A stretch of 14,457 bases of DNA, from positions 1 to 14,457 of the forward strand of contig PLZT01000403.1 in assembly GCA_003152255.1 (NCBI GenBank), read 5' to 3'. Position 1 is the stretch's first letter; the number at the start of each line of letters is the position of its first letter. The position numbers were made by a program, and so were the translations under genes. The notes below the pieces were generated by a model, which saw nothing but the letters and a program-made list of their open reading frames with translations, was not told where the DNA came from and searched no databases. Positions 1-14,457 of the stretch are shown one piece after another. The stretch comes from Methylocystaceae bacterium. Lineage in GTDB: Bacteria > Pseudomonadota > Alphaproteobacteria > Rhizobiales > Beijerinckiaceae.

Positions 1-3
1 ACA

Positions 4-219
4 TTAACTCATTCTATTCACACGGTATTTATGGCATCGGCATGAAAATTTTCCCCACAAAAATTGCAGAAGAGCCAAAATGTAATTGAAGACCGTATGC
101 AAGGTGAGTTTCGGCGCCGGGCCTCGGCTCCCGACGGTAAGATGCGGCAAGACAAATTGCTGGAACTGCTCGAAACTCAATCTCGTCGGAATCGACTGCC
201 GTTGCTGGCTGCTCGCCAT
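4..219 (-). pseudogene. Truncated transposase-like N-terminal fragment
   Basis: A 71-codon reading frame on the minus strand, starting MASSQQRQSIPTRLSF and ending at a TAA at positions 4-6. The middle (FVLPHLTVGSRGPAPKLTLH, then VFNYILALL) resembles the N-terminal DNA-binding part of DDE transposases of the IS4/IS5 kind, recalled from family patterns and not searched. After about residue 50 the sequence stops looking like that family and ends early, so only an N-terminal scrap remains. The frame is open upstream to 390, overlapping the end of the porin gene, but the ATG at 219 is chosen because a GGGG stretch lies just before it and similarity begins shortly after. It lies 158 bases downstream of the porin gene on the same strand. 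No catalytic residues are present, so it should be inactive. The family assignment is uncertain. Confidence 0.4.
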
Positions 220-377
220 TTTGCCCCACAAAGAAATTAGATTTTTGCCCGCTTCGGTCGCTATCATTAAAAAGTCCGTAACTACAGCGCTTACAGACAA
301 ATTCGCGCGATTCGCAAAACCCGCAACCAGTAGCTGGCCAAAATCACGCCACCCCTGGGTAATTACGCGAATCCGCT

Positions 378-2519
378 CTAGAACTCCCAATGGAGCCGGC
401 CGCTAAAAATGTTTACTGGGCCTCGACTAGTGTTAAAGCCAGGATTTTGGACGAACTGGTAATCGAAAGTGATAGACGTCGATGACATCAGACTAAGATT
501 GTAATATGATTCAAGGACTTTCTCTGGGCCGGTAGGAAATGGTTGCTGTCCACCACTAACCAACACTCCGGAGCCACCAAGATTTAAATAATTTAGCTCT
601 GCTGCTGCCGCTTCATTGTATATGCCTGCAATACCCACCGTATCCTTCGGCCTCCCCCAGAACGCGCCCCCGATCGAGACACCGCTGCTGAAGAACAAAT
701 GGGAGTCCGAAGATGACAAACCTTCAACGTAACTTGGCGCGAAGCCGACGCGGGAGAATACACCCACATTTGGCATGATTTGCTGCTCAAGATTAATATG
801 CGCATCGACCTTTTGCCGGTATTTACGCACCGAGGAGGTCTCTGGAGGTTGATTTGTCGCTAACCCAAGCGCAATAGCGTCCGAATATGTGCCCAGACGG
901 CCAGAGACCATATTCACGTTGACTTTCACTTTTCCTGGCTGCCCCCACAGTTCATGCCGTTCCTCGACTTCGCCAACGATTTCGTACTGGCTGAGCGTCG
1001 GATCGGAGCCATAGGCGTTCGATGTGTTGCTATACGCCGATCTGGACATGTCGAACCATCCCAGGCGGTAGGTAAAGCGATCTTTATATAATTCGGCGGC
1101 GGCGCCAGGGCCGATTCCCCAAGCGTCGCCGCCCCAATCGAACGTCAAACAATAAACAAGTCCCCAATTCATGAACTGAGTTTTTGCGCTATTGGCGTAC
1201 GTGTTCGTGTCAAAAATATCTAATGGAGATATTATGCCGGTAGTTAGAACAAGGCGATCCGAGGTTTGCGTCCCGGCAAATCGATTAAAGTCAGCCTCCA
1301 CCTTCTGCGTTTCGCCGCCGAGATTTATTGTCTGTCTGACGAAAGCGCGCATAATTTTAGCATAAGGTATCGCTTGGCCGAGTTTATACGCTTCGGCGGT
1401 TGGAACATCCGCTATGCCGGCACCATTGTTAACCCCAAATCCTTGATCAATCTCTGGATTTACCCAAAATTCGGCTCCCTGCCAAAGCTTAAGGCCGGTG
1501 AAAAGGGTGGTTTCCCCGATTTCGGTGCTATGCCCTTTGGCGGGCAGCGTAAGCGGGGCGCCGATGAATGAGGGAGGCTGCCGGAACGTTGGATAGCCCA
1601 ACTCTGTCAATGTAAATTGGCCACGAATATTGATCAGGTCCGGATCCAACTCGAGCAAAGTTGGGCGAGTTTGCGCCGATGGAGTCCCCATATCGTCAAA
1701 ACGGTAGTTCAGACCGATACGCGCTTTATGTTCGGAAACATTGGAGGACACCCGCAGGCCGGAGCTTGGAAAGTCTACGTTGCTCGTCCCATAGTTGGCG
1801 TACAAATATTCGGCCCAGAGCGTCCACTGCGGGATCAATGGCGTTTCGACGCCAGCCCCAGCCGTCCAGCCCAGCCGTCGATGGTGAGACAAGTCGGTCG
1901 CGCCGCTCGCGTTTTGCGTCATCGTAAATTGTTCGGAAGTCCAGGCGAGGCCGCCCGTCGCATAAAGCAGCCAATTGCCCGGCGCATATCCGATGCGGCC
2001 CCGCACCGAGCCAGAAATATACGTGCTATCGGTATAGCTCGCCGTGCCGCCCAATACATTGGCGGTGTTGCCGGTGTTATGGCCCGCGTAATTGGGAAAG
2101 GCTGAGAAACTGATATCCGCTACGGCTCCAATAACCGCGCGATTGGCCAGCATGTAATTATATCCCACTTGCGCGCCTTCAAACCAGCTTCCGCCCTGGT
2201 TGAAGAGGTTGAGTGGAACAGCCTGGCTGATTGAACCGCGATCGACAATGAGTCCAGGCGCCGTGGGGGAACTGGCGATCCAATTCGATGCGCCCCAGAC
2301 ATAACCCAAATGTCCGCCGACATATAATCCTGTCCAATTAAAGTCGTCTGATTGTTGCGGGGCGGTCACCGGAGGGGATTTTGGGGAGAGATCCGCTGCG
2401 GACGCTCTCCAAGGCAACAAAGTTTCCGAAACCGCCAAAGCAATAAGAAAGACCCGGCAAGATTTCGTCGCGCCGCCGCTCTGGACGCCGAACGAACGGA
2501 TTAAGTTGGAATGGCGCAT
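378..2519 (-). CDS. Outer-membrane protein: Omp25-like barrel fused to OprB-like porin, guanidine-riboswitch controlled
   Basis: A 713-residue outer-membrane protein. Residues 1-41 look like a signal peptide with a long N-region and a likely cut at ASA|AD. Residues about 59-274 form an Omp25/opacity-type beta-barrel: FNWTGLYVGGHLGY at the start, barrel strands such as GRIGYAPGNWLLYATGGLAW, and ARIGLNYRF at the end. Residues about 285-713 resemble the carbohydrate-selective porin family OprB (TELGYPTFRQPP, long glycine/aromatic strands), ending in Phe as outer-membrane barrels do. The ATG at 2519 has GAGGG eight bases upstream. It is a single-gene unit directly behind a guanidine-I riboswitch and translated on the same strand as the guanidine operon, so its likely job is guanidine entry across the outer membrane. 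The substrate is inferred only from regulation; a sugar or other small cation is possible. The two-barrel fusion is unusual. Confidence 0.85.
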   Translation of the reverse strand: MRHSNLIRSFGVQSGGATKSCRVFLIALAVSETLLPWRASAADLSPKSPPVTAPQQSDDFNWTGLYVGGHLGYVWGASNWIASSPTAPGLIVDRGSISQAVPLNLFNQGGSWFEGAQVGYNYMLANRAVIGAVADISFSAFPNYAGHNTGNTANVLGGTASYTDSTYISGSVRGRIGYAPGNWLLYATGGLAWTSEQFTMTQNASGATDLSHHRRLGWTAGAGVETPLIPQWTLWAEYLYANYGTSNVDFPSSGLRVSSNVSEHKARIGLNYRFDDMGTPSAQTRPTLLELDPDLINIRGQFTLTELGYPTFRQPPSFIGAPLTLPAKGHSTEIGETTLFTGLKLWQGAEFWVNPEIDQGFGVNNGAGIADVPTAEAYKLGQAIPYAKIMRAFVRQTINLGGETQKVEADFNRFAGTQTSDRLVLTTGIISPLDIFDTNTYANSAKTQFMNWGLVYCLTFDWGGDAWGIGPGAAAELYKDRFTYRLGWFDMSRSAYSNTSNAYGSDPTLSQYEIVGEVEERHELWGQPGKVKVNVNMVSGRLGTYSDAIALGLATNQPPETSSVRKYRQKVDAHINLEQQIMPNVGVFSRVGFAPSYVEGLSSSDSHLFFSSGVSIGGAFWGRPKDTVGIAGIYNEAAAAELNYLNLGGSGVLVSGGQQPFPTGPEKVLESYYNLSLMSSTSITFDYQFVQNPGFNTSRGPVNIFSGRLHWEF

Positions 2520-2525
2520 GGAGTT

Positions 2526-2586
2526 ATCCCTCAGCTTTCGCTACTTCGAGGGATTGACAAAGACCTTCGTAGCGCCAATCCCTTGG
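2526..2586 (-). promoter_or_regulatory. Riboswitch expression platform that can hide the ribosome binding site of the porin gene
   Basis: Between the aptamer and the porin ATG, the minus strand holds three mutually exclusive pairings seen by eye. The ribosome binding site GAGGGAT (2532-2526) is perfectly complementary to ATCCCTC (2554-2548). An overlapping CAATCCCT (2556-2549) is perfectly complementary to AGGGATTG (2583-2576). That last segment lies in CCAAGGGATTGG (2586-2575), which can fold on itself and whose CCAA is also part of the aptamer closing stem (GCCAA, 2587-2583). A further pair CGCTAC/GTAGCG (2574-2569 with 2544-2539) brackets the anti-RBS. The arrangement fits translational control with ligand turning expression on. 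The pairings are observed; the switching order is inferred. Confidence 0.6.
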
Positions 2587-2697
2587 CTTACGAGGTCTCC
2601 CGGGTTTTTCTCCCGCCGTGCGCCCGAAGGATGTCTCCCTTCGGGTAGCGGCTCTCGGACCAGCGTCTTTTCAGATCGGAACCCTAGCCGCCAACTC
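2585..2697 (-). promoter_or_regulatory. Guanidine-I riboswitch (ykkC class), copy 2
   Basis: The minus strand carries the ykkC-class signature in order: GGCTAGGGTTCCG at the 5' side, then GGTCCGAGAG, a long variable hairpin (CCCGAAGG with CCTTCGGG), then ACGGCGGGAGAAAAACCCGG followed by GAGACC. The closing stem can form between TTGGC/GGCT at the 5' end and AGCC/GCCAA at the 3' end. The class senses free guanidinium and normally turns its target on. It sits 65 bases upstream of the porin gene start. The core matches copy 1 at 14078-13963 almost word for word, while the variable helices differ in length and sequence, so the two copies are old relatives and not a recent duplication. Confidence 0.95.
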
Positions 2698-3014
2698 TTT
2701 TTTTACCCTATCGTGTCTGCTCGTATTTGAGAAGGTCGCTCCTGCATAAAGCTGAGGCAATCTCTGAAGATTGATTCATCAAGTAGCTATTTGACGATGC
2801 AGCCCGGTGCAGCAATTCTCGACATCTCCCGTTCTGACAGCTGATCCTTAAGGACGTCGAATGTCGTTGCACGAAGAAATCATTTTTGCTTCAATCGCGC
2901 AGCAACGACAGATCAAGATTTCGCTGCACACGCGAGCGCGACGGCGCCTCGAAATGTCATGCGCCGCCCACTCCAGCCGCGCGATCAACAAGGCGTCGGT
3001 TTATAGCGATCGAC
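2698..3014. other. Non-coding stretch between riboswitch 2 and the transposon remnant
   Basis: About 317 bases with no recognisable gene. It must contain the minus-strand promoter for the porin transcript; the only sigma-70-like candidate I see is TTCTCA, 17 bases, TAGGGT just before the riboswitch, a poor match. Unlike copy 1, no GG/GC sigma-54 pattern was found. A plus-strand frame beginning MSLHEEIIFASIAQQ at 2861 runs about 58 codons but resembles nothing I know. This stretch may also hold the left border of the transposon, which I could not place. Confidence 0.5.
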
Positions 3015-3061
3015 ATGGCCAAGCCGGTTTATTTTGACGATGATATGGAATTCTGGGACCA

Positions 3062-3866
3062 ATGATCGAGCCACCACATTTGGCGCCCGCCGCCGCGCTC
3101 GGCGCTACTGCAGCATCTTGATGCGCTACGCGATCATCCGCCTTCGACACGCCCGCCTGGGCTCGCGATTTACGGCGATAGCGGCATGGGCAAGACCATG
3201 CTCGTGGAAAAGTTTCGGCGCGATCACCCGCCGATCGTAAATTGCAACAACGGCTCCGAGGCCCTGCCCGTGCTGGCCATCACGTTGACGTCGTGCCCAA
3301 CCGAACGTCGGATATATGGCCAACTGCTCATGGCGCTGGGCGCCAGCGTCAATGAACGCGCGACTCTCATGGAGCTCGAGATCAGGACAGTGCTTCTGTT
3401 GAAGGACAGCAGTGTCCGCGTCTTGGTCATTGACGAGGTTCATAACCTGCTCGCCGGCACGCCCCGAGAGCAGCGCGGAATTCTCCAGTTGCTGCGATAC
3501 CTGAGCAACGAACTCAGAGCGTCGCTCGTTTGCCTCGGCGTAACTGACGCCCGCGACGCAATCGCTGGCGACACCCAACTTTCGCAACGTCTCGATCAAA
3601 TTGTGCTGCCAAGATGGAAGGCCGACGAAGAATTTCAAGAGCTTGTTACCGCGATCCTACGCAGTCTGCCTCTCAAACAACCATCCGCCCTGTCGAGCCA
3701 AAACCTGCGCCATCCCTCGCGCATCAGCGACGGGATCACAGCGCGCCTACTCGAGATACTCAACGAGCTTGCGATCGACGCAGTCCAAGCGGGCGCGGAA
3801 CGTATCACTGACGAAGACATCGAATCCTGGAAACCAGCCCTTGAAAAGGAAACCGCTTTCGCCTGA
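3062..3866 (+). pseudogene. tniB: TniB-like transposition AAA+ ATPase, apparently frameshifted near its 5' end
   Basis: The long frame encodes an AAA+ ATPase of the TniB type, the ATP-dependent partner of the TniA transposase in Tn402/Tn5053-like elements. It shows Walker A GDSGMGKT (codons at 3174-3197), Walker B RVLVIDEVHNLL, and a TniB-like middle and tail (LRYLSNELRASLVCLGV, ILNELAIDAVQAG). The only in-frame ATG, at 3186, lies inside Walker A and cannot be the true start. In-frame TniB-like coding continues upstream (SALLQHLDALRDHPP) to a TGA at 3063-3065, with no ATG, GTG or TTG. An ATG at 3062 in another frame gives MIEPPHLAP before stopping, so a one-base shift around 3085-3100 would join the two. 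A short frame MAKPVYFDDDMEFWDQ ends at that TGA, an ATGA overlap. It is isolated: no tniA or tniQ is visible. A rare start (ATT 3078 or CTG 3108) is the alternative. Confidence 0.7.
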
Positions 3867-3887
3867 CGTGACGTCCAACACAAAAAT

Positions 3888-3934
3888 GGCATTTCAATCG
3901 AGACTCTGGCGGCAAAAGTCTCAATTGAAATGCC
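3888..3934 (-). terminator. Long hairpin with T-run, possible terminator of the guanidine operon
   Basis: Positions 3888-3905 and 3917-3934 are inverted copies of an 18-base sequence separated by 11 bases. Read on the minus strand, the single difference becomes a U-G wobble, so all 18 positions can pair, and the hairpin is followed by ATTTTTG. It lies about 195 bases past the allophanate hydrolase stop codon and 21 bases past the tniB-like stop on the other strand. The stem is AT-rich for a terminator, and the arms are better explained as transposon repeats that happen to act this way. Confidence 0.4.
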
Positions 3935-3975
3935 CAAAATCGGCGTGGCCTCCCAAAGTCTCACATTGAACTGCC
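3888..3975. repeat. Three copies of an 18-19 base repeat behind the tniB-like gene
   Basis: Copy 1 (3888-3905) is the reverse of AGTCTCAATTGAAATGCC with one change; copy 2 (3917-3934) is AGTCTCAATTGAAATGCC; copy 3 (3957-3975) is AGTCTCACATTGAACTGCC, the same orientation as copy 2, starting 40 bases further on. Repeated subterminal sites of this length next to tni genes are typical of transposase binding sites at the ends of Tn402/Tn7-like elements. No matching set was found on the left side of the tniB-like gene, so the other end appears lost or unrecognised. Confidence 0.6.
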
Positions 3976-4129
3976 AATCGACACTGAGTTAAATATTGCG
4001 AAGCACTGTCACCAAGCTGTCATTTTAAGCATTTGCTTGCCTGAAAGACAGATTTGACCGGGCAGCTCGTTTTTTCTCCGACCGTTGCGCGAATATCACT
4101 CTTTGGCGCACGGTGAGTCGCGCGTCCGT

Positions 4130-5932
4130 TCAACTCTTCGTCGCGATATAGGCGCGCCATCCTCCCAGGTCGGTGATTTCCTGCGCACCCTGGACAGCGT
4201 GCCATTCACACAGAAAACCGGTGATCTGCGAGCCGTCGTCGAGAGTCACCTTGCCAACGCCGAGTGGCGTAGGGATCGCGGCGACGAAGGCTCCGAAGGC
4301 CGCCGGCGAAAGTCCCCATACCTCGACCGCCAATCCGGCGCCCGCAAATCCAGGATCGCGCACGAGGCCCGGCTTTGGCGGCGTCGCGCCCGGAAGAACG
4401 AAGAGGCGATAATCTCCCGCAGTGCGACAGGCCCTGATGCGGACGCCTCCAGCGTCCGCAAGCAGGTGATTGAGCGGCATGCCGGAGAGATGCGCGCCGA
4501 CGACAGCAATCGGGATCAAAGAAGCGTCAGACGTCGTCAGCACGCTTTCATTCGGTATGACGGCGGCTGTGTCGCGTCCCATGCCGCAAGACGCTGCGCG
4601 ATGAAGACGATCGGCAAGCTTCGCGAGGCCATCATCGGCAAAGGCCGGCGCGATCAACGTCACGCCCACAGGCAATCCGTCGCTGCGAAATCCCGCCGGC
4701 ACAGCGACTGCGCAACAATCCAGAAAATTCACGAAATTTGTGTAAAGGCCAAGATTGGAGTTGAGTGCAACAGGATCGCGCATCATCGCGTCGACGCTGT
4801 AAATGGTCGGCGCCGTTGGCAACAGCAACACATCCATCTTGCTCCATTCGCGCGCGGCCGCTTTGCGAAAAGCTTCGAGCGCATAGGCGCCGCGAAATGC
4901 GTTGACAGCCGTGATGCCCTGTGCGCCCACAACAATGCCGCGCACGGTCGGATCCATCGCGTCGGCGCACCGTTCGAAAAAGGGCGCGATAGCCGCGAGC
5001 CGTTCGGCCACCCACGGACCGCCGTAGAGCAACCCAGCGCAGTCGCGGAATGGCGCATAGTCGATTGCAACCGATTTGCCGCCGAGGGTCACGAGCCGCG
5101 CGATGGCGACGTCGTAGTTCGCTTCGGCATCTCGATCACCAAAGAATTCGCGATCACCCGCGGCGAGAACGCCGAAGCGGAAGCAATCGACGGGCAATGC
5201 GCGCGCCGCCATGCTGCGCCCATAAGGATCCGTCGGATCATTATCCTGCAGGACGCGGCGCACGCGATCCGCATCTCCGACTGCGGCCGCGAAGACGCTG
5301 ACGCAGTCGAGGGTGCGGCAGGCCGGGACGACGCCGGTCGTGGAGATCAGTCCGCGCGTCGGTTTGACGCCGACGATATTGTTGAACGCCGCCGGAACGC
5401 GTCCCGATCCCGCCGTGTCGGTGCCAAGTGCAAAGGAGACTTGGCCTGAAGCGACGGCGACCGCCGAACCGGACGACGATCCGCCAGAGATGTAGTCGCG
5501 ATTAAATACGCAGCGCGGCGCGCCATAGGGCGAGCGGGTTCCGTTGAGCCCGGTGGCGAACTGATCGAGATTGGTCTTGCCGATTAGCAATGCGCCGGCG
5601 GATCGCAGCAGTGCAACGGCGCGTGCGTCGTCCCGAGGCTCGTAGGCGAACGCTGGGCAGGCGGCGGTGGTTGGCATCCCGCGCGCGTCGATATTGTCCT
5701 TCACGGCGAAGGGAAGGCCCCACAGCGCCCTTTGCCCTTCCACCGGGCCACGGTCGATCAGCGCACGCGCGTCGTCAAGGATCGCGTCGTTTGAGCGACG
5801 TGTGATCCAAACCGACCCATCGGCGCCGGAGTCGATCCGCGCGAGCAGGGCGCAGGCGACGTCGAATGGTGTAAACGTGCCACTCCGATAGCCGGCCTCG
5901 AGCGACGCAATATCCAATATTGCAGGAATCAT
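4130..5932 (-). CDS. atzF: Allophanate hydrolase (amidase-signature enzyme, two domains)
   Basis: A 600-residue cytoplasmic enzyme that hydrolyses allophanate to ammonia and CO2, the last step of the pathway. Residues 1 to about 440 form the amidase-signature domain: Lys78 in FAVKDN, the cis-serine Ser152 in SGGSSSGS, and the nucleophile Ser176 in GTDTAGSGRVPA give the full Ser-Ser-Lys triad. Residues about 445-600 (starting near IPIAVVGAHLSGMPLNHLL) are the C-terminal domain found in AtzF-type allophanate hydrolases, so the protein is full length. The ATG at 5932 overlaps the carboxylase stop as ATGA, with AAGG just upstream, which implies translational coupling and a fixed ratio with the carboxylase. 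It is the last gene of the operon. In bacteria this activity is encoded apart from the carboxylase, unlike the fused yeast Dur1,2 protein. Confidence 0.95.
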   Translation of the reverse strand: MIPAILDIASLEAGYRSGTFTPFDVACALLARIDSGADGSVWITRRSNDAILDDARALIDRGPVEGQRALWGLPFAVKDNIDARGMPTTAACPAFAYEPRDDARAVALLRSAGALLIGKTNLDQFATGLNGTRSPYGAPRCVFNRDYISGGSSSGSAVAVASGQVSFALGTDTAGSGRVPAAFNNIVGVKPTRGLISTTGVVPACRTLDCVSVFAAAVGDADRVRRVLQDNDPTDPYGRSMAARALPVDCFRFGVLAAGDREFFGDRDAEANYDVAIARLVTLGGKSVAIDYAPFRDCAGLLYGGPWVAERLAAIAPFFERCADAMDPTVRGIVVGAQGITAVNAFRGAYALEAFRKAAAREWSKMDVLLLPTAPTIYSVDAMMRDPVALNSNLGLYTNFVNFLDCCAVAVPAGFRSDGLPVGVTLIAPAFADDGLAKLADRLHRAASCGMGRDTAAVIPNESVLTTSDASLIPIAVVGAHLSGMPLNHLLADAGGVRIRACRTAGDYRLFVLPGATPPKPGLVRDPGFAGAGLAVEVWGLSPAAFGAFVAAIPTPLGVGKVTLDDGSQITGFLCEWHAVQGAQEITDLGGWRAYIATKS

Positions 5933-8900
5933 TGGCCGACCTTTTCAAGAACAGCGACGGCGTCGCCCGCCCGAACGCCGCGTCCTTGCTTGCAACGGAT
6001 TTCGGCGACGCGGCCCGCCTCAGGCGCCACAATCTCCATCTCCATCTTCATCGATTCGACGACAACGACCGCTTGGCCGCGCTCGATCATCTCGCCTTTC
6101 TCAACGAGAATTTTCCATACATTGCCGGAAATATGAGCGGACACGGCGAAACCGCCGGGCGGCAAGCCCAACCCGTCACCGTCCCGCGCGCCTCCATCGT
6201 CGGAAACGAAACTGTCGAGACCCTTCGCCTTCCAATCAGCGCGTTCCGCTTCAAAAGCTGCATGCTGACGCGTTTTAAACGCCGCGATTCCCTCGCCGTT
6301 TTCGGCGAGGCTCCGGGCATAGTCGCGATACGAAAAGGTCGTCTCCTGAATTTCAATCGGATAACCGCCGTGCGGAAAGGCTTCGCGCGCTTCCACAAGC
6401 TCCGCTTCCGTGACAGGAAAAAAACGGATGCGGTCGAAGAAGCGCAACAGCCAGGGATGGCCGAGCGAAAATTCGCCGGTCGTGCGCCAAGAATTCCACA
6501 TCTGGATGGTGCGGCCGAACAATTGATAGCCGCCCGGACCCTCCATGCCGTAGACGCACAGATAGGCGCCGCCAATGCCGACCGCGTTTTCCGGAGTCCA
6601 TGTGCGGGCGGGATTGTATTTCGTCGTCACAAGCCGATGACGCGGATCGACGGGTGTCGCGACCGGCGCGCCGAGATAGACGTCGCCAAGACCCATCACG
6701 AGATATTCGGCGGAGAATACAATGTCGCGCACAGCGCCGATGCTTGGCAGACCGTTGATGCGCCGGATGAACTCGATATTGGACGGACACCAGGGCGCAT
6801 CGGGACGCACAAGCTCCTGATATTTGCGCATGGCGAGTTGAACCGATGGATCGTTCCACGACAAGGGCAAGTGAACGATGCGCGAGGGAACGCTGACGTC
6901 CTCGGTGGGGAGCAACGCCGTCTCGATGCGCTGCAACACCTCGATAAGGCGGGCCCCGGACAGGGTGGCGCTCTCGAAGTGAATCTGCAGCGATCGAATG
7001 CCCGGCGTGAGATCGACGATGCCCAGAAGTTTTTCGGCGCTTAACGCCTCGGCGAGCAGATGCACGCGCAGACGCAAGGCGATATCCAATGACATGGGCC
7101 CGTATTCGACGAGCAAATAGTCGTCGCCCGCGCGCCGGTAGACGACTTTTGTCGGCCCATCATCCAGGCAGTCGAGAATAGGGCTTTGTAGCGACCTGCC
7201 GCTTGCGAGCCGCGTGGCCTCTCGGCCTATCGCTGTGCGGGGTGCCTTGGCGACGTAACCTTCCTCAGCTTGAAAGCGAACGCCGTCCCCGGGCTTGAAC
7301 TGGCCGATTTTCCATAGATCACCAGGCGCGACGACGGCCGGGCAGACGAACCCGCCGAGACTCGGGCCATCGGGCCCAAGGATGATCGGCATGTCGCCCG
7401 TAAAGTCGATCGCGCCAATCGCATAGGCGTTGTCGTGGATGTTGGATGGATGGAGGCCGGCTTCGCCGCCATCCTTGCGCGCCCAACGCGGCTGCGGGCC
7501 GATGAGCCGCACACCGGTGCGGGCGCTGTTAAAGTGGATTTCGTAGCGCGCCGAGAACAAGTCTTCGATATCGGACGTCTCAAAGAAATCTGGAGCGCCA
7601 TGCGGGCCGGAGCGCACTTCAAGCAGCCATTCGCGAACGAGCGGTGGAATCTCCTCAGCTATCGTAGGCCTCGCGGCGCCGACCGGCGCCTTCCCGATCT
7701 TGAGGACATCGCCGGCGCGCAGAGCGCCCACGGCGTGCCCGCCAAAACGGCCCAGCATGAAGGTGGCTTTCGAGCCAAGAAAAAACGGCGCGTCGACGCC
7801 GCCAGCAATGGCGAGATAGCTGCGTTGCCCCGGCCCCTCGATCGCCCCGAGAGATAACGTCTGCCCCACTCTCACCGCGACAGGCTGGAAATAGGCGATC
7901 GGCTGGTCATCGAGACACGCGGGCATGAACGCGCCCGTGAGCGCGATCAGCGCATTGCAATGAAAGCGCAACTTCGGGCCTGCGACTGTGCATTCGAGCG
8001 CCGCGGCACCTTCGTCATTGCCGACGATGCTATTCGCGAGCCGATGCGAGCGGGAATCCATCGGACCGGACGGCGGAACGCCGACGCTCCACAAACCAAG
8101 GCGCCCCGGCCAATCCTGCACGCTCGTCTGCGCGCCAGGCACAATCACCTCGATAGCGCGCGGCGTGAAGGCAAATGACTTCAGCAGGCCGGTCGAAACC
8201 TTTCCTGTCGTAAATTCCGGCGTCGACGCAACCGAGGCGAGATAGTCGAGATTCGTTTCGAGGCCATAGAGTTCGGTCTCGGCGAGGGCGACCTGCATTC
8301 TTGCGATCGCCGCCGTTCGGTCGGCCGCATGAACGATGAGCTTGGCGAGCATCGGATCATAATGCGGCGTGACGTCGCTTCCCGTTTCAATCCAGCCGTC
8401 GACGCGCGCGCCCGCTGGCCAACGCAGATGCGTGACGACGCCCGTCGCGGGCCGGAAATCGGCCTGAGGATTTTCGGCGTAGATGCGCACTTCGATCGCC
8501 GCGCCCCTGGGAACTAACTCGCTCTGCGCCGGCGCTGAAAACTCACCCGCCGCCTGTCGGATCATCCATTCCACGAGGTCGACGCCAAAGACGGCCTCGG
8601 TGACGGGATGCTCCACCTGCAGGCGCGTATTAACTTCAAGGAAATAGAAATCCTCTCGCGCGACGTCATAAATGAACTCCACCGTTCCGGCGGATTCGTA
8701 GGCGACAGCCTCGCCAAGCGAAATCGCCGCTGCACGCAGCCTCTCGCGCGTCGCAGCGGAAAGACCTGGCGCGGGAGTTTCCTCGATGACCTTCTGATTG
8801 CGCCGTTGCAAAGAGCAATCGCGTTCGCCGAGCGAGAGAACCCGTCCGTCGCCGAGGCCGAAGATCTGCACCTCGATGTGACGAGCGACCGGAATGAAGC

Positions 8901-9498
8901 GTTCGATAAAGACGCGCGCGTCGCCGAAGCTCGCGCCCGCCATCCGTTGCACCGTTGCGAATTTGGCCGCGAGCTCCCGCTCGTCATGACAGAGCTGCAT
9001 GCCAATGCCGCCGCCGCCGGCCGTGCTCTTCAGCATCAGCGGATAACCGATCTGCGTCGCGGCCGCCGTAGCGTCATCGATGCTCGCGAGGATATCGCTG
9101 CCCGGCAGCAGCGGCGCGCCGCAACGCGCGGCGATGGCGCGCGCGGTGTGCTTGAGACCAAACTCGCGAAGATGCTCGGGATTCGGTCCGATGAACACAA
9201 TTCCTTCTGCGGCGAGTTGTTCGGCGAATCCGGCATTCTCGGACAGAAAGCCGTAACCGGGATGCACAGCCTGCGCACCCGTCGCTTTGCATGCGGCGAC
9301 AATCGCCTCAATGTCGAGATAGCTGTCCTTCGCGGGCGCGGGGCCGATGCGGACGCGCTCATCCGCGTCGAGCACGGGCCGCGTGAAGCGGTCCGCGTCC
9401 GAATAGACGGCGACCGAGCCGATCTCGAGCCGATGCAGCGTGCGGATCACCCGGCCGGCGATTTCGCCCCGGTTGGCGACAAGGACTTTCTTGAACAT
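5929..9498 (-). CDS. Biotin-dependent guanidine (urea-type) carboxylase
   Basis: A 1189-residue multidomain carboxylase. Residues 1 to about 445 are biotin carboxylase (glycine loop STAGGGGIGM near 158-167, RDCSLQRRNQK 227-236, EVNTRLQVEHPVTE 288-301). Residues about 449-1090 are the urea-carboxylase carboxyltransferase with KipA-like and KipI-like parts (VPPSGPMD 474-481, DGGEAGLHPSNIHD, LGPDGPSLGGF). The C-terminus is the biotin carrier domain with biotinyl Lys1151 in ESMKMEM. It would use ATP and bicarbonate to carboxylate guanidine to carboxyguanidine. Such proteins are often labelled urea carboxylase; the guanidine riboswitch and deiminase partners point to guanidine. Asp698 in AIDFTGD lies where, from memory, fungal urea-specific enzymes have Asn; that alignment needs checking. 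It starts four bases after the preceding gene, without a strong ribosome site. Confidence 0.95.
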   Translation of the reverse strand: MFKKVLVANRGEIAGRVIRTLHRLEIGSVAVYSDADRFTRPVLDADERVRIGPAPAKDSYLDIEAIVAACKATGAQAVHPGYGFLSENAGFAEQLAAEGIVFIGPNPEHLREFGLKHTARAIAARCGAPLLPGSDILASIDDATAAATQIGYPLMLKSTAGGGGIGMQLCHDERELAAKFATVQRMAGASFGDARVFIERFIPVARHIEVQIFGLGDGRVLSLGERDCSLQRRNQKVIEETPAPGLSAATRERLRAAAISLGEAVAYESAGTVEFIYDVAREDFYFLEVNTRLQVEHPVTEAVFGVDLVEWMIRQAAGEFSAPAQSELVPRGAAIEVRIYAENPQADFRPATGVVTHLRWPAGARVDGWIETGSDVTPHYDPMLAKLIVHAADRTAAIARMQVALAETELYGLETNLDYLASVASTPEFTTGKVSTGLLKSFAFTPRAIEVIVPGAQTSVQDWPGRLGLWSVGVPPSGPMDSRSHRLANSIVGNDEGAAALECTVAGPKLRFHCNALIALTGAFMPACLDDQPIAYFQPVAVRVGQTLSLGAIEGPGQRSYLAIAGGVDAPFFLGSKATFMLGRFGGHAVGALRAGDVLKIGKAPVGAARPTIAEEIPPLVREWLLEVRSGPHGAPDFFETSDIEDLFSARYEIHFNSARTGVRLIGPQPRWARKDGGEAGLHPSNIHDNAYAIGAIDFTGDMPIILGPDGPSLGGFVCPAVVAPGDLWKIGQFKPGDGVRFQAEEGYVAKAPRTAIGREATRLASGRSLQSPILDCLDDGPTKVVYRRAGDDYLLVEYGPMSLDIALRLRVHLLAEALSAEKLLGIVDLTPGIRSLQIHFESATLSGARLIEVLQRIETALLPTEDVSVPSRIVHLPLSWNDPSVQLAMRKYQELVRPDAPWCPSNIEFIRRINGLPSIGAVRDIVFSAEYLVMGLGDVYLGAPVATPVDPRHRLVTTKYNPARTWTPENAVGIGGAYLCVYGMEGPGGYQLFGRTIQMWNSWRTTGEFSLGHPWLLRFFDRIRFFPVTEAELVEAREAFPHGGYPIEIQETTFSYRDYARSLAENGEGIAAFKTRQHAAFEAERADWKAKGLDSFVSDDGGARDGDGLGLPPGGFAVSAHISGNVWKILVEKGEMIERGQAVVVVESMKMEMEIVAPEAGRVAEIRCKQGRGVRAGDAVAVLEKVGQ

Positions 9499-9502
9499 GA
9501 CG

Positions 9503-10183
9503 TCACGCGATCGCGGGGTCGAAGATCATCACCTTGACCGGCGTCGGATTGAATCCGTTGCAAGGATTGTTGATCTGCGGGCAATTTGAGATGACGGCGA
9601 TGAGATCCGTGGCTGCGAGCACGTCGACATAGTCGCCGGGACTCGAGACGCCGTCGACGATGGCGAGGCGCCCGTCCGGCTCGATCGGCACATTCATGAA
9701 GAAGTTTATGTTGGGCACAATGTCGCGCTTGGTCATGTCGTGCTTGGCGACTTCCATCAGAAAGTTCTCGCGACAGGCGTGCATGTAGCGCGTGTGCTGG
9801 CCAAAGCGCGCCGTATTCGCCTCGCAGGAACAGGCTCCGGCCGAGGTGTCGTGACGCCCGCAACTGTCGGCGACGACGACGGCCAGCACATTGCCTTCGT
9901 TCGACATCAATCGGGAGCCCGTCGTGATATAGGGCGCGCCCTGCGCAAGCATCGTGTCTTGCGCACTGTAGCGCTCGCTTGTGTCGGCGGCGTCATAGAA
10001 GAGCGCGTCGACAGCCTGCTGGCCTTCGAGATCGACAATGCGAAGAATCTGCCCTTTCTCGACGATGTGTGACCACGGGTTGTTGGCGGGAATGGTGAAT
10101 TCGTAAATCGCCTTGTCGGGATCGATAGCGGGCGCGGCGAAGAAGGCGGACGCCGTCCCGAGAGTCGTGACGTTGCTATTCAT
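9503..10183 (-). CDS. Carboxyguanidine deiminase subunit (DUF1989, urea carboxylase-associated), shorter partner
   Basis: A 226-residue DUF1989 protein, one of the paired 'urea carboxylase-associated' proteins now known to form a two-subunit carboxyguanidine deiminase (CgdAB) that converts carboxyguanidine to allophanate plus ammonia. Visible family features are GQILRIVDLEGQQAVDALFY (44-63), DSCGRHD (106-112), Cys118 and Cys120, CRENFL (137-142), and SNCPQINNPCN (199-209). The ATG at 10183 is chosen because GAGGAG lies seven bases upstream and family similarity starts soon after; the frame stays open much further, but that part merely overlaps the neighbouring gene. It lies ten bases after the longer partner and four before the carboxylase. 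I cannot say from sequence alone which subunit is CgdA and which CgdB. Confidence 0.92.
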   Translation of the reverse strand: MNSNVTTLGTASAFFAAPAIDPDKAIYEFTIPANNPWSHIVEKGQILRIVDLEGQQAVDALFYDAADTSERYSAQDTMLAQGAPYITTGSRLMSNEGNVLAVVVADSCGRHDTSAGACSCEANTARFGQHTRYMHACRENFLMEVAKHDMTKRDIVPNINFFMNVPIEPDGRLAIVDGVSSPGDYVDVLAATDLIAVISNCPQINNPCNGFNPTPVKVMIFDPAIA

Positions 10184-10193
10184 GACGCGCTCC

Positions 10194-11033
10194 TCAGCCT
10201 TGCAGATATGTGGCATTGTTCTCGAATCCGCGAGCGGCTTCCGCCGTCGCGGTGCGGCACAGGTCGTCATCGCCGGGATCGGGAGCCTCAAAAATAACGA
10301 CCTCAACGGATCCAGGCTCGAATGTGAGGTCTGGAGCCAGAGGATGCGGACAGTTTGAGACAACGACGATCGTGTCGAGTTCGGCGCGAAGATCGACGAA
10401 ATCGCCCAGCGCGACGCCATCGCGCCACACGGCATGGCCGTCGACGATAGAGACGGGCGCGAAAAAAGTGATCGCCGGCGCAAGATCCCGCACGCCAAGA
10501 CCATGTTTGCCGGCCGCGAGAATGAAATTCTCGCGCGTCGAGCGCAGACCCGCATCGCCGTATTTGCGTAGGTTCGACGCGCGCGTGGAGCCTCCGATGA
10601 TCGTATCATGGCCGCAGCAACTGTCCTCGATGATCGAGAAGAGCACGCGACCCATGTCGGAGAAGAGGACGCGGCCTTTGCGCATCTCGCTCGTCCACTG
10701 AATCTTGATTGTGTCAGCGCTGTTGTACCGTTCGGATGGGTCGTTCGCGTTCCAGGCAAAAAACGACAGGCCGGGATTGCCGGCGCTGTTGAGCAGACGC
10801 AGCGCCTCGCCACGACGCATCCGCGCAGTCCAGTACCAGCCACCCGGAATCGCCTCTCGGCACCTGACATTCTCGAGCGGAAGCTGCGCGTCGCTGCGTG
10901 GCGTCGGCGGCGGCAAAGCGCGCGGCGCAACTGTGCTGCCCGCAGCCTTCATCTCCTCATAGCGTTTGCGATTCTCGGCGATCATGGCGGCGATGTGCGT
11001 CGAGTTCTTTGCCTTCGATTGCTGCGCGTTCAT
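10194..11033 (-). CDS. Carboxyguanidine deiminase subunit (DUF1989, urea carboxylase-associated), longer partner
   Basis: A 279-residue DUF1989 protein, the second member of the deiminase pair. It has an N-terminal extension of about 50 residues that looks helical and charged (AAMIAENRKRYEEMKAAG) and then proline-rich. The core has RMRRGEALRLLN (71-82), SERYNSADTIKIQW (100-113), DSCCGHD (137-143), TRENFILAAGKHGLGVRDL (166-184) and SNCPH (226-230). It differs from its partner by having CC in the DSC motif and lacking the CxC and PCN cysteines, which suggests unequal roles in the active site. The ATG at 11033 overlaps the ATPase stop as ATGA, with GGAG seven bases upstream. Its role is inferred from the family and from its position next to the carboxylase. 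Confidence 0.92.
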   Translation of the reverse strand: MNAQQSKAKNSTHIAAMIAENRKRYEEMKAAGSTVAPRALPPPTPRSDAQLPLENVRCREAIPGGWYWTARMRRGEALRLLNSAGNPGLSFFAWNANDPSERYNSADTIKIQWTSEMRKGRVLFSDMGRVLFSIIEDSCCGHDTIIGGSTRASNLRKYGDAGLRSTRENFILAAGKHGLGVRDLAPAITFFAPVSIVDGHAVWRDGVALGDFVDLRAELDTIVVVSNCPHPLAPDLTFEPGSVEVVIFEAPDPGDDDLCRTATAEAARGFENNATYLQG

Positions 11034-11878
11034 CCTCGTGCTCCGTTCAGAGCCGGGTCGTCCTGGCGTTGTTCTGGCTGCGGCTGCGGGTCGTCCCGTC
11101 CGGAGGGAGAAGGATTGGTTGCTTCAGGCAGAGCGGCGGCAATACGGCTCGGCCATATGTCGATGTCGCGTCCGATGATGGCGCCATATCGTCCGCCGTC
11201 CGTCGGCTCGTTGCGCCGCCGCTCAAAGGCGACGACGCGCGTCGCCAGTTTGAACGCTTCCGAAAGATCGTGCGTCACCATGACGACCGTAAGGGACCGA
11301 TCATTCCAAAGCTTGCGCATCAGCTCGTGAATTTCCGCCCTTATCCCCGGATCAAGCGCGCCGAACGGCTCGTCGAGCAGGAGCACCTTCGGGCGAGCGA
11401 TAAGCGCCTGCGCCAACGCGAGTCGCTGCTGCATTCCGCCTGAGAGTTGCGCCGGATATTTCGCTTCGGCACCGGACAGACCCACCGCGGCGAGCAGTTG
11501 GCGCGCTTCATCTTCAGCCGCGCGCCGCCGCTCGCCCGAAAGTCGACCGAACAGAGCGCCGAGAACGCCGCTAGCCTGAAGGTTCGGCCCCAGCAAAACA
11601 TTGCCCAGGACAGTCAGATGCGGAAATACCGAGTAGCGCTGAAACACAACGCCGCGCTCCGAACTCGGCTCACGCGAGATTGGCGCGCCTTCCAGCTCAA
11701 TGACGCCGCTCGTCGGCTGCTCCTCGGACAACAGCAGCTTCAGGAACGTCGTCTTTCCGCAACCCGATGGGCCTACGAGGGCAACGAAAGCGCGCGGGGC
11801 AACCTCGAGGTTGATCTGCTCGAGCACGATGTAATCGCCATATTCTTTCCAGACGTTCTTGACCGAGATCAGGCTCAT
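11030..11878 (-). CDS. ABC transporter ATPase of the guanidine uptake system (NitT/TauT type)
   Basis: A 282-residue nucleotide-binding subunit that powers import through the permease encoded just before it. All ATPase motifs are intact: Walker A GPSGCGKT (36-43), Q-loop VVFQ (77-80), signature LSGGMQQR (145-152), Walker B VLLLDE (165-170), D-loop GALD, and the switch histidine His203 in THD. The frame is open 68 codons further upstream, but that part overlaps the permease gene; the ATG at 11878 forms an ATGA overlap with the permease stop and begins MSLISVKNVWKEYGDY, as the family does. The last 60 residues or so are a proline-, arginine- and glutamine-rich tail with no clear motif. It is most like the nitrate/taurine/aliphatic-sulfonate group; the guanidine substrate is inferred from riboswitch and operon. 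Confidence 0.93.
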   Translation of the reverse strand: MSLISVKNVWKEYGDYIVLEQINLEVAPRAFVALVGPSGCGKTTFLKLLLSEEQPTSGVIELEGAPISREPSSERGVVFQRYSVFPHLTVLGNVLLGPNLQASGVLGALFGRLSGERRRAAEDEARQLLAAVGLSGAEAKYPAQLSGGMQQRLALAQALIARPKVLLLDEPFGALDPGIRAEIHELMRKLWNDRSLTVVMVTHDLSEAFKLATRVVAFERRRNEPTDGGRYGAIIGRDIDIWPSRIAAALPEATNPSPSGRDDPQPQPEQRQDDPALNGARG

Positions 11879-12789
11879 GACGACGCCCTCGCCGTCGCGA
11901 ACCACGGAAAGACGCGCCGCTGCAGAACAAGGAGACCGATCTCCATTGTGAAAGCGAGCAGCGTGATCCATGCGACGTACGGCAGAATCACATCCATCGC
12001 GAGATAGCGGCGCACGAGAAAAATCCTGTAGCCAAGCCCGGACTCGGACGCGATCGCCTCGGCGGCAATGAGAAACAGCCATGCAGGACCAAGCTGCAGG
12101 CGCAACGAGTCAAGCAGGCGCGGCAAGATCTGCGGCAGCACGATGCGCCAGACAATCGTCCATGTCGACGCGCCGAGGGTCTGCGCCTTGATAAACTGCT
12201 GCGGCGGCAAATCCTCTATTCGCAGCGCCACATCTCTTATGAGAGGCGGCGCGACGCCAATGACGATCAGGACGATTTTCGCCGTTTCGCCAAGCCCCAC
12301 CGTGATGAACAATATTGGCAGGATCGCGAGCGGCGGCACCATGGAAACCACTGCGACGAAGCCGCCCATAAGCGCACGCACATAAGGCAGAAGTCCGATG
12401 GCGACCCCGAGCGCCAAACCGAGGATTGTCGCAATGGCGAGCGCGGCCGATAATCGACCAAGGCTCGCGCCAGTGTCGAGCCAGAACAGCACGTCGCCCG
12501 TGCGCTGATCGACTGTAAACGCCATGCGCTTGATGGCATCGACAAAGGCCGAAAACGCGGGCAGCAGCTTGTCGTCCTGATTCGCCGCGCGTCGCAACGC
12601 CGAGCCAATCAGATAGGCCACAAGCGTCACGGCGAAGGGGATCAGCGCTAAAACCCGCGCGCCGCCACGTCCCGGGCGTCGATTGATAAATCGCATCGGC
12701 ACAAGCCTCTTGGCGAAAGGATGCGCAACATCTGCGCCAGCTGCAGGTCGGAGGTCCGGATTCGACGCCGACCATCCGACCTGCGTCAT
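11875..12789 (-). CDS. ABC transporter permease of the guanidine uptake system (NitT/TauT type)
   Basis: A 304-residue inner-membrane subunit with about six hydrophobic segments: near 46-64, 111-134, 141-166, 170-187, 234-247 and 266-290. The cytoplasmic coupling loop (EAA motif) reads KAQTLGASTWTIVWRIVLPQ at 201-220, which contacts the ATPase. The ATG at 12789 begins five bases after the binding-protein gene with AGGAA upstream. An alternative ATG at 12696 (residue 32, MRFINRRPG) has AAGAGG in front and would drop a soluble N-terminal stretch; the longer form is annotated because it fills the gap between genes. It overlaps the ATPase gene by four bases. Substrate specificity comes from the binding protein, so guanidine is a contextual inference. 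Confidence 0.92.
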   Translation of the reverse strand: MTQVGWSASNPDLRPAAGADVAHPFAKRLVPMRFINRRPGRGGARVLALIPFAVTLVAYLIGSALRRAANQDDKLLPAFSAFVDAIKRMAFTVDQRTGDVLFWLDTGASLGRLSAALAIATILGLALGVAIGLLPYVRALMGGFVAVVSMVPPLAILPILFITVGLGETAKIVLIVIGVAPPLIRDVALRIEDLPPQQFIKAQTLGASTWTIVWRIVLPQILPRLLDSLRLQLGPAWLFLIAAEAIASESGLGYRIFLVRRYLAMDVILPYVAWITLLAFTMEIGLLVLQRRVFPWFATARASS

Positions 12790-12794
12790 CGGTC

Positions 12795-13895
12795 TTAGAG
12801 TTTTCCTGCCGCCGCCGCCATATAGGCGTCCGTGAAGCGAAGCTTCACTTTGTTTTTGTCGCCGATCACCTTGCCGTCGGAAAATTTAATGCCCACCGCA
12901 TCGACCGACGTCGCATTATTGCCCAGCAGATTGTGCTCGAAGAGGAAGTGGCGAATCCTGTCCATGGTCACGCTGACTTCGGAACTGCGCGCGAAGGACG
13001 CCCCCTCCTCTGCGCTGGCGAAGAGTTTTGTCGCAGCGAGCTGACTCTCGAAGCCGGCGAGGTCAGTTCCGGACGCCTTGCCCATCGCTTCGCGCGCAGC
13101 TTTGCCTTCCGGCGTCTTGGAGACCATCACAGCGAGGGTCTCGTACCAGATGCCGACTAGCGCTTTGGCGAATGCGGGATTGTCATTCAGCGTCTCGGTG
13201 TTGACGACCGTCAGATCGATGATTTCGCCGGGAATCTGTGACGAATCGAACACTTTATGAGCGCTCTTGTCGCCAAGGATTTCCGCCACGATCGGGTTCC
13301 AGGTCACGACAGACGTCACCGCCGGAGTTTTCCACGCGGCGACCATATCGGCGTCAGATGTGGAAACGACAGTCAGATCCCGTTCCTTCATTCCCACAGT
13401 GCTAAGCGCGCGCGCGAGAAGATAATGCGAGACCGAAAACTGGACGAGATTTACCTTTTGTCCTTTGATGTCGGAGAGCTTGGTCTTGTCTTTCAAAATG
13501 ACGGCGTCGTTCCCGTTGGAGAAATCGCCCACGATCACCGCCGTCGTGTCGACTCCGCCAACCGCCGGCGTCGACAATGCGTCCATATTCGTGACGGTGA
13601 GCGCGTCGAATCCGCCGACCGTATATTGGTTGATCGACTCGCCGTAGTCATTGACCTGAACGACGTCGATTTTTATGCCGTGTTTGTCCGCCCATTTCTT
13701 GACGATCCCATGGTCGCTGGCCCATTGCCACGGCATCCAGCCAACGTAAATCGTCCAGGCGAGCTTGAACTGCTTTTTCTGTGCAGCCATCGCTTCTTGC
13801 GGCATGGCGAGGCCAAGCGTCGCTGCGGCCAGCGCAACCCTGCCGATAAGGACGCCGGCAAAATTCAACCTCTTTAGGCGTGTCGAGACATTCAT
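12795..13895 (-). CDS. Periplasmic substrate-binding protein of the guanidine ABC transporter
   Basis: A 366-residue secreted binding protein of the NitT/TauT fold, of the kind found beside urea carboxylase genes. Residues 1-37 form a signal peptide: basic start MNVSTRLKRL, hydrophobic core, AMA|AQ cut. The mature part begins KKQFKLAWTIYVGWMPW and includes YTVGGFDALTVTNMDAL and VGDFSNGNDAVILK, typical of this family's substrate cleft. Three ATGs are possible (13946, 13901, 13895); the last is chosen because GGAG stands six bases upstream and the signal peptide starts there cleanly. It is the first gene after riboswitch 1, so guanidine control acts on it directly and reaches the rest of the operon by co-transcription. 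Guanidinium as ligand is inferred from this control. Confidence 0.93.
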   Translation of the reverse strand: MNVSTRLKRLNFAGVLIGRVALAAATLGLAMPQEAMAAQKKQFKLAWTIYVGWMPWQWASDHGIVKKWADKHGIKIDVVQVNDYGESINQYTVGGFDALTVTNMDALSTPAVGGVDTTAVIVGDFSNGNDAVILKDKTKLSDIKGQKVNLVQFSVSHYLLARALSTVGMKERDLTVVSTSDADMVAAWKTPAVTSVVTWNPIVAEILGDKSAHKVFDSSQIPGEIIDLTVVNTETLNDNPAFAKALVGIWYETLAVMVSKTPEGKAAREAMGKASGTDLAGFESQLAATKLFASAEEGASFARSSEVSVTMDRIRHFLFEHNLLGNNATSVDAVGIKFSDGKVIGDKNKVKLRFTDAYMAAAAGKL

Positions 13896-13962
13896 GTGCA
13901 TCTCCGCTCGCAGCGACAACCGGGCCAAAAATAGGCAGAAGACCAAGAGCCGCCAATTCGCT

Positions 13963-14078
13963 GGCTACTGAGGTCTCCCGGGATTTTATCCCGCCGTGTC
14001 CCAAGCGGATTTCTCCCGCACAGGCGGCAGCTCTCGGACCAGAACACCTCGCATGAGGCCGGAACCCTAGCCGCCAAC
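13963..14078 (-). promoter_or_regulatory. Guanidine-I riboswitch (ykkC class), copy 1
   Basis: The minus strand shows the ykkC signature in order: GGCGGCTAGGGTTCCGG, a short GCCTC/GAGG hairpin, CTGGTCCGAGAGCTGCC, a second hairpin (GCGGGAGAAATCCGC), ACGGCGGGATAAAATCCCGG and GAGACC. The closing stem is GGCTA (14072-14068) with TAGCC (13967-13963). The class binds guanidinium and normally activates downstream genes. It lies 67 bases upstream of the binding-protein start codon. The leader between them repeats nine bases of the aptamer's 5' strand, TTGGCGGCT, at 13956-13948, which could compete for the closing stem. Confidence 0.96.
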
Positions 14079-14094
14079 TCAACGAACCTGTTAC

Positions 14095-14110
14095 TGCAGA
14101 ATTTGTGCCA
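14095..14110 (-). promoter_or_regulatory. Putative sigma-54 (RpoN) promoter of the guanidine operon
   Basis: On the minus strand TGGCACAAATTCTGCA matches the sigma-54 consensus TGGCAC-N5-TTGCA except for one base (C for T); the invariant GG (14109-14108) and GC (14097-14096) have the required spacing. A start about 12 bases past the GC falls near 14085, seven or so bases ahead of the riboswitch. Sigma-54 with NtrC usually drives nitrogen-scavenging genes, which suits a guanidine nitrogen pathway. I did not find a clear NtrC site upstream. Confidence 0.72.
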
Positions 14111-14457
14111 AATCAGTAACGTTGGGTTTCCGGTTCAACGAAAGTCGAGCGGCGGGGGCGCTGATTATTGGCTGTGCACTTGTGCTTAACGACAAAGCAG
14201 GTTGCGCGCGAAGTGGGCGGCCAATTCCGGTTGTCGCCAGAAACTCGGGCAATTTGCCCAGCTCGCTGCGGGTTAGATACCCTGGCGACACGTCGAAGAA
14301 AGGTCAAGGACACGGGGCGCCGCCGGTTCTTCTTTCACGGCAGCGCAATACCCGTCGCGGCCAAGTGCGTGAAGCCGCGCGCGTCTAATACCAAATCTCA
14401 CAGAGCGTGACTCTGTGGCTCTTCCCGAATCAGCAACGATCTGATTCAACGTGGCGA
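14111..14457. other. Region without a recognisable gene, upstream of the guanidine operon
   Basis: About 347 bases in which short frames exist on both strands but none resembles a known protein or has a supporting ribosome site. An activator site for the sigma-54 promoter would be expected here. The right end holds two perfect hairpins and may be the border of an insertion sequence that continues beyond the window. Confidence 0.5.
14399..14447. repeat. Two adjacent perfect inverted repeats, possible insertion-sequence end
   Basis: CACAGAG (14399-14405) pairs with CTCTGTG (14411-14417) across five bases, and GAATCAG (14427-14433) pairs with CTGATTC (14441-14447) across seven. Neither is followed by a T-run on the plus strand. 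Clustered short palindromes at the edge of a gene-free stretch are common at insertion-sequence ends, but the element itself would lie outside the window. Confidence 0.4.

Follow-up and report, generated by a model that had tools for sequence, protein, structure and literature searches.

A guanidine-I riboswitch precedes the gene of a 713-residue outer-membrane porin in a contig from an uncultured Methylocystaceae bacterium (PLZT01000403.1, assembly GCA_003152255.1), and this unit adjoins, on the same strand, an operon for guanidine import and degradation that carries a guanidine-I riboswitch of its own. The stretch analysed, referred to below as the window, comprises positions 1 to 14,457 of the contig. 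From sequence comparison and structure modelling we lean towards the view that guanidine induces the porin, which would act as an outer-membrane member of a regulon for guanidine uptake and degradation. The riboswitch-porin unit is real and looks functional. Control of the porin by guanidine is likely, given that its leader is complete and resembles the importer leaders of Rhodoblastus-group genomes. As to what the barrel conducts, a channel for guanidinium is the best reading that we can infer.

A preliminary description of this stretch had placed a guanidine-I aptamer upstream of a 713-residue outer-membrane protein, and both elements are confirmed (Table 1). The aptamer covers the RF00442 model in full (positions 1-107; E 4.1e-13 in cmscan), exceeds the gathering score of that family and lies in a 5' leader with an expression platform, 75 nucleotides (nt) before the porin ATG. 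The porin's open reading frame (ORF) matches OMP_b-brl at residues 53-274 and OprB (PF04966) at residues 344-713 in Pfam, the latter with E 1.1e-33 and 117.6 bits against a curated cut-off of 22.9. In the final structure model, which was computed from 111 rows (the window protein and 110 of its 120 listed relatives), the C-terminal barrel has the OprB barrel fold seen in PDB 4gey; an earlier model from 20 sequences was poor, with a predicted local distance difference test score (pLDDT) of 54.4, and was replaced. In the porin family the small barrel and the OprB barrel are joined in one chain, and strands of both are confident in the model. Comparison of the porin with viral contigs yielded three matches, of 20 residues. 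A general link of the family to metals was considered and rejected, as a probe search placed Nramp-like genes near 4 of 80 porin loci and genes like those of cation diffusion facilitators near 1 of the 80; an Nramp gene lies near one plasmid relative of the porin and a cation diffusion facilitator near another. The description of the porin as a single gene is borne out in part: no Pfam match was found for the sole later same-strand ORF of at least 80 residues (390-4), although it lies at the very end of the window.

Table 1. Features of the porin unit and of the guanidine operon in the window
Feature	Position	Strand	Basis or remark
Guanidine-I aptamer, porin leader	2595..2698	(-)	cmscan RF00442, 79.3 bits (gathering score 63)
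Hairpin after the aptamer (AGACC...GGTCT), loop side with element b	2561..2598	(-)	Minimum-energy fold; conserved in 27 selected leaders
Element b, GGGATTGGC	2582-2574	(-)	Within the hairpin
Element d, GTCAATCCCTC	2548..2558	(-)	Can pair with element b or with the Shine-Dalgarno sequence
Shine-Dalgarno sequence of the porin, GAGGGAT	2526..2532	(-)	Sequence; paired with element d in the minimum-energy fold
Porin, 713 residues; small beta-barrel domain ~64-273 and OprB-type barrel ~283-713	378..2519	(-)	
Second guanidine-I aptamer, importer/catabolic operon	13973..14081	(-)	cmscan RF00442, 77.2 bits (gathering score 63)
Candidate sigma-54-type -24/-12 promoter before the second riboswitch	14095..14110	(-)	TGGCACAAATTCTGCA, 1 mismatch to TGGCACRNNNNTTGCW
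Substrate-binding protein of ATP-binding cassette (ABC) importer, 368 residues from ATG at 13901	12795..13901	(-)	TIGR03427, 513.7 bits (cut-off 333.9); start as in P0121
ABC importer permease	11875..12789	(-)	Pfam BPD_transp_1
ABC importer ATPase	11030..12082 (ORF as listed)	(-)	Pfam ABC_tran at 87-240
CgdA-type carboxyguanidine deaminase subunit (UAAP1)	10194..11033	(-)	TIGR03425, 256.8 bits (cut-off 206)
CgdB-type carboxyguanidine deaminase subunit (UAAP2)	9503..10213	(-)	TIGR03424, 324.2 bits (cut-off 284.7)
Guanidine (urea-type) carboxylase, 1189 residues	5929..9498	(-)	TIGR02712, 1809 bits
Allophanate hydrolase	4130..5932	(-)	TIGR02713, 778.9 bits

The platform of the porin leader is complete, with aptamer, hairpin and a strand for alternative pairing. 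Positions 2720-2500 fold better than 199 of 200 shuffles (z -3.21), and in the unbound minimum-energy form the hairpin is present and the Shine-Dalgarno sequence is paired. A GGGAGACC-like start is present in 113 leaders, of which 75 have at least eight bases of complementarity between elements b and d, partly by chance. Pairing was counted on 27 leaders (26 distinct) chosen for having the platform. In the 26 distinct ones, 97.7% of cells are paired for b-d and 92.9% for d-Shine-Dalgarno, percentages that are inflated by this choice, with 13 and 14 cells, respectively, changed on both sides. These cell measures were reached by none of 500 shuffles, and slid controls were at most 56% and 68% paired. 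Counted by pair, the signal is thin: each of the two interactions has 2 pairs with double changes, a number matched by 82 (b-d) and 438 (d-Shine-Dalgarno) of 500 shuffles. Most of these double changes trace back to a single split from G-C to A-U common to related leaders and thus represent few events.

We propose the following mechanism. Guanidine that reaches the cytoplasm would bind the aptamer of the porin leader, and the bound aptamer would withhold its 3' tail (GGGAG) from the hairpin. Element b, thus freed, could capture element d during transcription, before the Shine-Dalgarno sequence is made, in a presumed kinetic step that would leave the ribosome-binding site free. Without guanidine, the hairpin would hide element b, element d would pair with the ribosome-binding site, and little porin would be made. 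The direction of the switch is assumed from the known guanidine-I class, and action on translation is suggested by the pairing of element d with the Shine-Dalgarno sequence. The barrel would then let more guanidinium, or more of closely related guanidino compounds, through to the importer's periplasmic binding protein, itself made from the second riboswitch.

Beside the porin, the set for the guanidine carboxylase pathway is complete, with TIGR02712, TIGR03425, TIGR03424 and TIGR02713 all matched over their cut-offs; the CgdA/CgdB pair consists of two DUF1989 proteins. Both aptamers lie on one strand, which favours membership of the porin in the regulon, and cmscan of the window found no further Rfam family over its gathering score. 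An Asp at position 701 of TIGR02712 marks guanidine as opposed to urea carboxylases (PMC11410670; here and below, papers cited by PMC number are drawn on in excerpt). The window enzyme has Asp698 in the motif GAIDFTGDMP, which would be compatible with that rule if it corresponds to that profile position. The true start of the importer ATPase is probably further in than listed, the 5' part of the listed ORF overlapping the permease gene. The closest named relatives of the binding protein are from Methylocystis (83% identity to a metagenome-assembled genome (MAG) and 79% to M. parvus). The porin unit and the catabolic operon are separated by a region (3186-3934) with a TniB-type transposition ORF of 226 residues on the (+) strand and, just behind this ORF, an inverted repeat of 23 nt whose arms are 1 nt apart.

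The setting of the porin leader was judged against a survey of 153 guanidine-I leaders drawn from 38 porin-holding genomes, the Beijerinckiaceae, the Xanthobacteraceae, an alphaproteobacterial sample and a phylum-wide sample; 152 score over the cut-off and one (L171) at 62.1, and one place in G342 is counted twice (L211, L240). The label of each first gene comes from BLAST against a small reference set and denotes likeness, not function. The first gene is that of the importer binding protein in 115 cases, a guanidinase in 18, the permease in 8 and CgdA/CgdB in 7, the remainder being nitroreductases (2), TonB-dependent receptors (2) and an unassigned membrane protein (1). Three leaders outside the 153 precede a binding protein (L100) or CgdA (L176 and L237), and among 30 further leaders 28 could be typed, 13 to the binding protein and 15 to CgdA. 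Some leaders deserve mention in their own right. Two (L082 and L083, from G027 and G031) are over the cut-off before a nitroreductase-family gene, identified by Pfam in L083 and by likeness in L082, which is a type of target new to us. In L228 (G969) the aptamer is followed by a 478-residue membrane protein, by eye like amino-acid permeases, and then by a CgdA-like gene. Six matches below the cut-off (L101, L102, L104, L105, L106 and L174; 33 to 48 bits) are guanidine-I-like and precede membrane proteins that resemble EamA-type transporters by eye, perhaps representing another ykkC subtype. Finally, L183 (G066) has a guanidine-II match at 5747-5796 (+), with 42.4 bits against a gathering score of 32, which follows a guanidine-I of that strand at a distance of about 2.8 kb.

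Outer-membrane genes do occur in other guanidine regulons. The search for them near guanidine operons used receptor probes, the porin of the window and a C-terminal barrel motif, and other porin families may have escaped it. L180 (G874) has one guanidine-I ahead of CgdA, CgdB, carboxylase and allophanate hydrolase, and another ahead of an 810-residue TonB-dependent receptor, behind which come the binding protein of the importer (TIGR03427; 56% identity to that of the window), its permease and its ATPase. In L181 (G795), a receptor of the same type (86%) stands behind its own guanidine-I, another guanidine-I precedes CgdA, and the contig stops shortly after the receptor. In a second arrangement, a 726-residue receptor lies 115 nt behind allophanate hydrolase in L303 (G725); L393 (G1295) shows it again, with a receptor that is 95% identical. 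A weaker case is L314 (G593), with a receptor 1.3 kb further on. Among 83 neighbourhoods, some of them overlapping and 76 with a carboxylase or guanidinase, receptor matches were confined to G874, G795, G725 and G593; one of 20 further neighbourhoods from the order of G725 also has a receptor. Such receptors are plentiful in two of these genomes (47 matches in G874 and 70 in G795), yet the siting of the receptor between guanidine-I and importer in two species disfavours chance. Identity is 30% over 228 residues between the receptors of L180 and L303, and 21% over 207 between those of L303 and L314; at such low values, the receptors were probably recruited independently. Barrel-like genes in L325 and L331 were dropped, being on the strand opposite to the carboxylase; that of L331 (3839-4891 (+), 350 residues, near a guanidine operon) looks like a general porin by eye.

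Hence, outer-membrane uptake seems to have been recruited into guanidine regulons more than once, and further lineages support this wider pattern, the OprB form of which is known once. We regard it as evenly balanced whether some Gram-negative guanidine regulons include a dedicated outer-membrane importer, recruited under guanidine-I in at least three independent events, by an OprB-type double-barrel porin and by two lines of TonB-dependent receptors.

Several points weigh against the porin being such a member. Guanidinium is small and should cross general porins. The preliminary description had looked to a wider scan for guanidine-I aptamers before OprB genes, and this came back empty outside the window: an OprB porin is the first gene behind none of the 153 leaders and none of the 28 further typed ones, and a pattern scan, which recovers both window aptamers and is stricter than the covariance model, found no aptamer at any of 80 porin loci. 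In the 38 porin-holding genomes, Rfam detected guanidine-I in 3, always on a contig other than that of the porin. The OprB form of the link is thus found in this contig only. Its place in the regulon, also proposed in that description, retains the complete platform, the adjoining carboxylase operon and the receptors elsewhere in its favour. Within the leader, the hairpin is conserved yet barely covaries (116 of 500 shuffles do as well). Forcing the b-d pairing costs 8.6 kcal/mol relative to the unbound form, and with 5, 6 or 8 tail bases held free the folding model still pairs the Shine-Dalgarno sequence at equilibrium. A simple equilibrium switch is therefore unsupported, as equilibrium folding alone gives no ON state; either the choice is made during transcription or the model is incomplete. 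In addition, guanidine-I is described as acting on transcription (PMC11410670), whereas the porin platform suggests translation.

The origin of the porin leader bears on the strongest rival explanation. In local alignment its top matches are the importer leaders L081 (122.5), L092, L086 and L087. These four come from the same genus as G160, a genus in which one MAG bears the name Rhodoblastus, and the likeness extends over aptamer, platform and Shine-Dalgarno sequence through to ATGCGC. The leader of the window's own operon scores 68, so that a recent copy of this neighbour is rejected as the source. Among plasmid records 139 matches to the leader were obtained, of which 40 are listed; one of them (H21), inspected with its annotation, has the leader before an importer, and another (H31) carries no annotation. 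Recombination could have put a Rhodoblastus-type guanidine leader before a porin for Mn2+ or another solute, its induction by guanidine being accidental. The closeness to another genus's leaders would fit such a capture, as would the third-position GC of the porin (0.57 against 0.65-0.79 in the catabolic genes), the TniB-type ORF between the two units, the lack of a riboswitch-porin link elsewhere in the surveyed leaders, and the names Mn2+ porin or carbohydrate porin that databases give to its relatives, which also speak against a guanidinium channel. However, platform and start-codon register are intact, the unit adjoins a guanidine operon on the same strand, and an induced porin without purpose would be expected to decay; we consider capture unlikely.

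Somewhat less probable still is that the porin, though regulated by guanidine, serves larger guanidino compounds such as methylguanidine or agmatine, with guanidine as the signal of their presence. The expected passage of guanidinium through general porins would favour this, as would the nature of OprB-type barrels as nutrient channels, and use of methylguanidine from a guanidine-riboswitch operon has been described (PMC12508155). Against it, Pfam and TIGR profiles found no gene for such a compound in the window. A chimeric assembly, or a porin unit that is a remnant of a mobile element with no bearing on a living regulon, is suggested by the TniB-type ORF and the inverted repeat between the two units. 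It is nevertheless very improbable, given that leader, Shine-Dalgarno sequence and start codon are contiguous and ordered as in other genomes, so that the junction needs no join, and that the ORF is open over 713 codons and its protein cluster is listed with two contigs. The least credible reading makes the porin a stress or exit route at high guanidine, for release of guanidine or ammonium or for outer-membrane remodelling: export is the commonest use of guanidine riboswitches and has been suggested to pass through TolC in E. coli (PMC12186494), but the adjoining operon encodes an importer with binding protein and a degradation pathway, and no exporter gene was found in the window.

Regulation of the porin as a guanidine-induced outer-membrane member may differ from that of the catabolic genes. 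Sigma-54-type sites, defined by the presence of GG and GC with at most 2 mismatches within ~150 nt upstream of the aptamer, precede 102 of 155 aptamers (the 153 and the window's two), with ~1.0 expected from mononucleotide shuffles; they often lie 10-19 nt before the aptamer core and, since the leaders are related, are not independent events. Both receptor leaders have such a site. At the same threshold, none was found in the porin leader or its nearest relatives (L081, L086, L087, L088 and L092), nor in any of the 18 guanidinase leaders. A scan for sigma-70-type promoters before the porin leader performed at chance level and found none. From this distribution, the catabolic genes seem to be gated by nitrogen state and guanidine, and the porin by guanidine alone. 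If the sigma-54 sites are true, guanidine catabolism would need nitrogen shortage and guanidine together.

Published accounts of guanidine use, as far as the excerpts reach, start uptake at the inner membrane, with importer, catabolic enzymes and exporter. The literature searched in this form (including PMC12186494, PMC2211319, PMC11410670, PMC13296017, PMC10119275 and PMC12508155, with the founding work on guanidine-I and that on guanidine as a nitrogen source outside its scope) held no report tying a guanidine riboswitch to a porin, a TonB-dependent receptor or sigma-54. The riboswitch-porin unit and the receptors suggest that crossing of the outer membrane can limit guanidine use and share the same signal. 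They offer a first substrate with which to test a large porin family as well as two lines of TonB-dependent receptors, and would point to habitats in which scarcity of guanidine, or of a larger guanidino compound, makes a separate entry route worthwhile.

Among known systems, the closest are the guanidine-I riboswitches (RF00442) before importer/carboxylase operons, which share aptamer, platform and neighbouring genes with the porin unit, its leader being of the importer-leader type; the window differs in that the target is an outer-membrane porin and not an importer, exporter or enzyme. The TonB-dependent receptors of L180, L181, L303 and L393 are likewise outer-membrane proteins under guanidine-I together with guanidine importer and carboxylase genes, but they are energised and of another fold class, and stand behind their own guanidine-I in two genomes and at the operon end in the other two. 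The OprB carbohydrate porin (PF04966, PDB 4gey) shares family and fold with the C-terminal domain; the window porin is 14% identical to it, has an extra N-terminal small barrel and is apparently under guanidine control. MnoP, the high-affinity Mn2+ porin of Bradyrhizobium japonicum, is regulated by metal. Its likeness to the window porin lies in database names only, Mn2+ porin being one of the names carried by relatives of the latter, and it is described as a porin used for a small cation (PMC6011978). Porins linked to small nitrogen compounds, by induction or by use, are described in Methylophilus methylotrophus (FmdC; PMC5877670) and Burkholderia cenocepacia (BCAL3473; PMC10117139), a precedent in favour of the role proposed here; likened to the window porin through these descriptions, they differ from it in substrates and regulators, and the excerpts mention no riboswitch for either.

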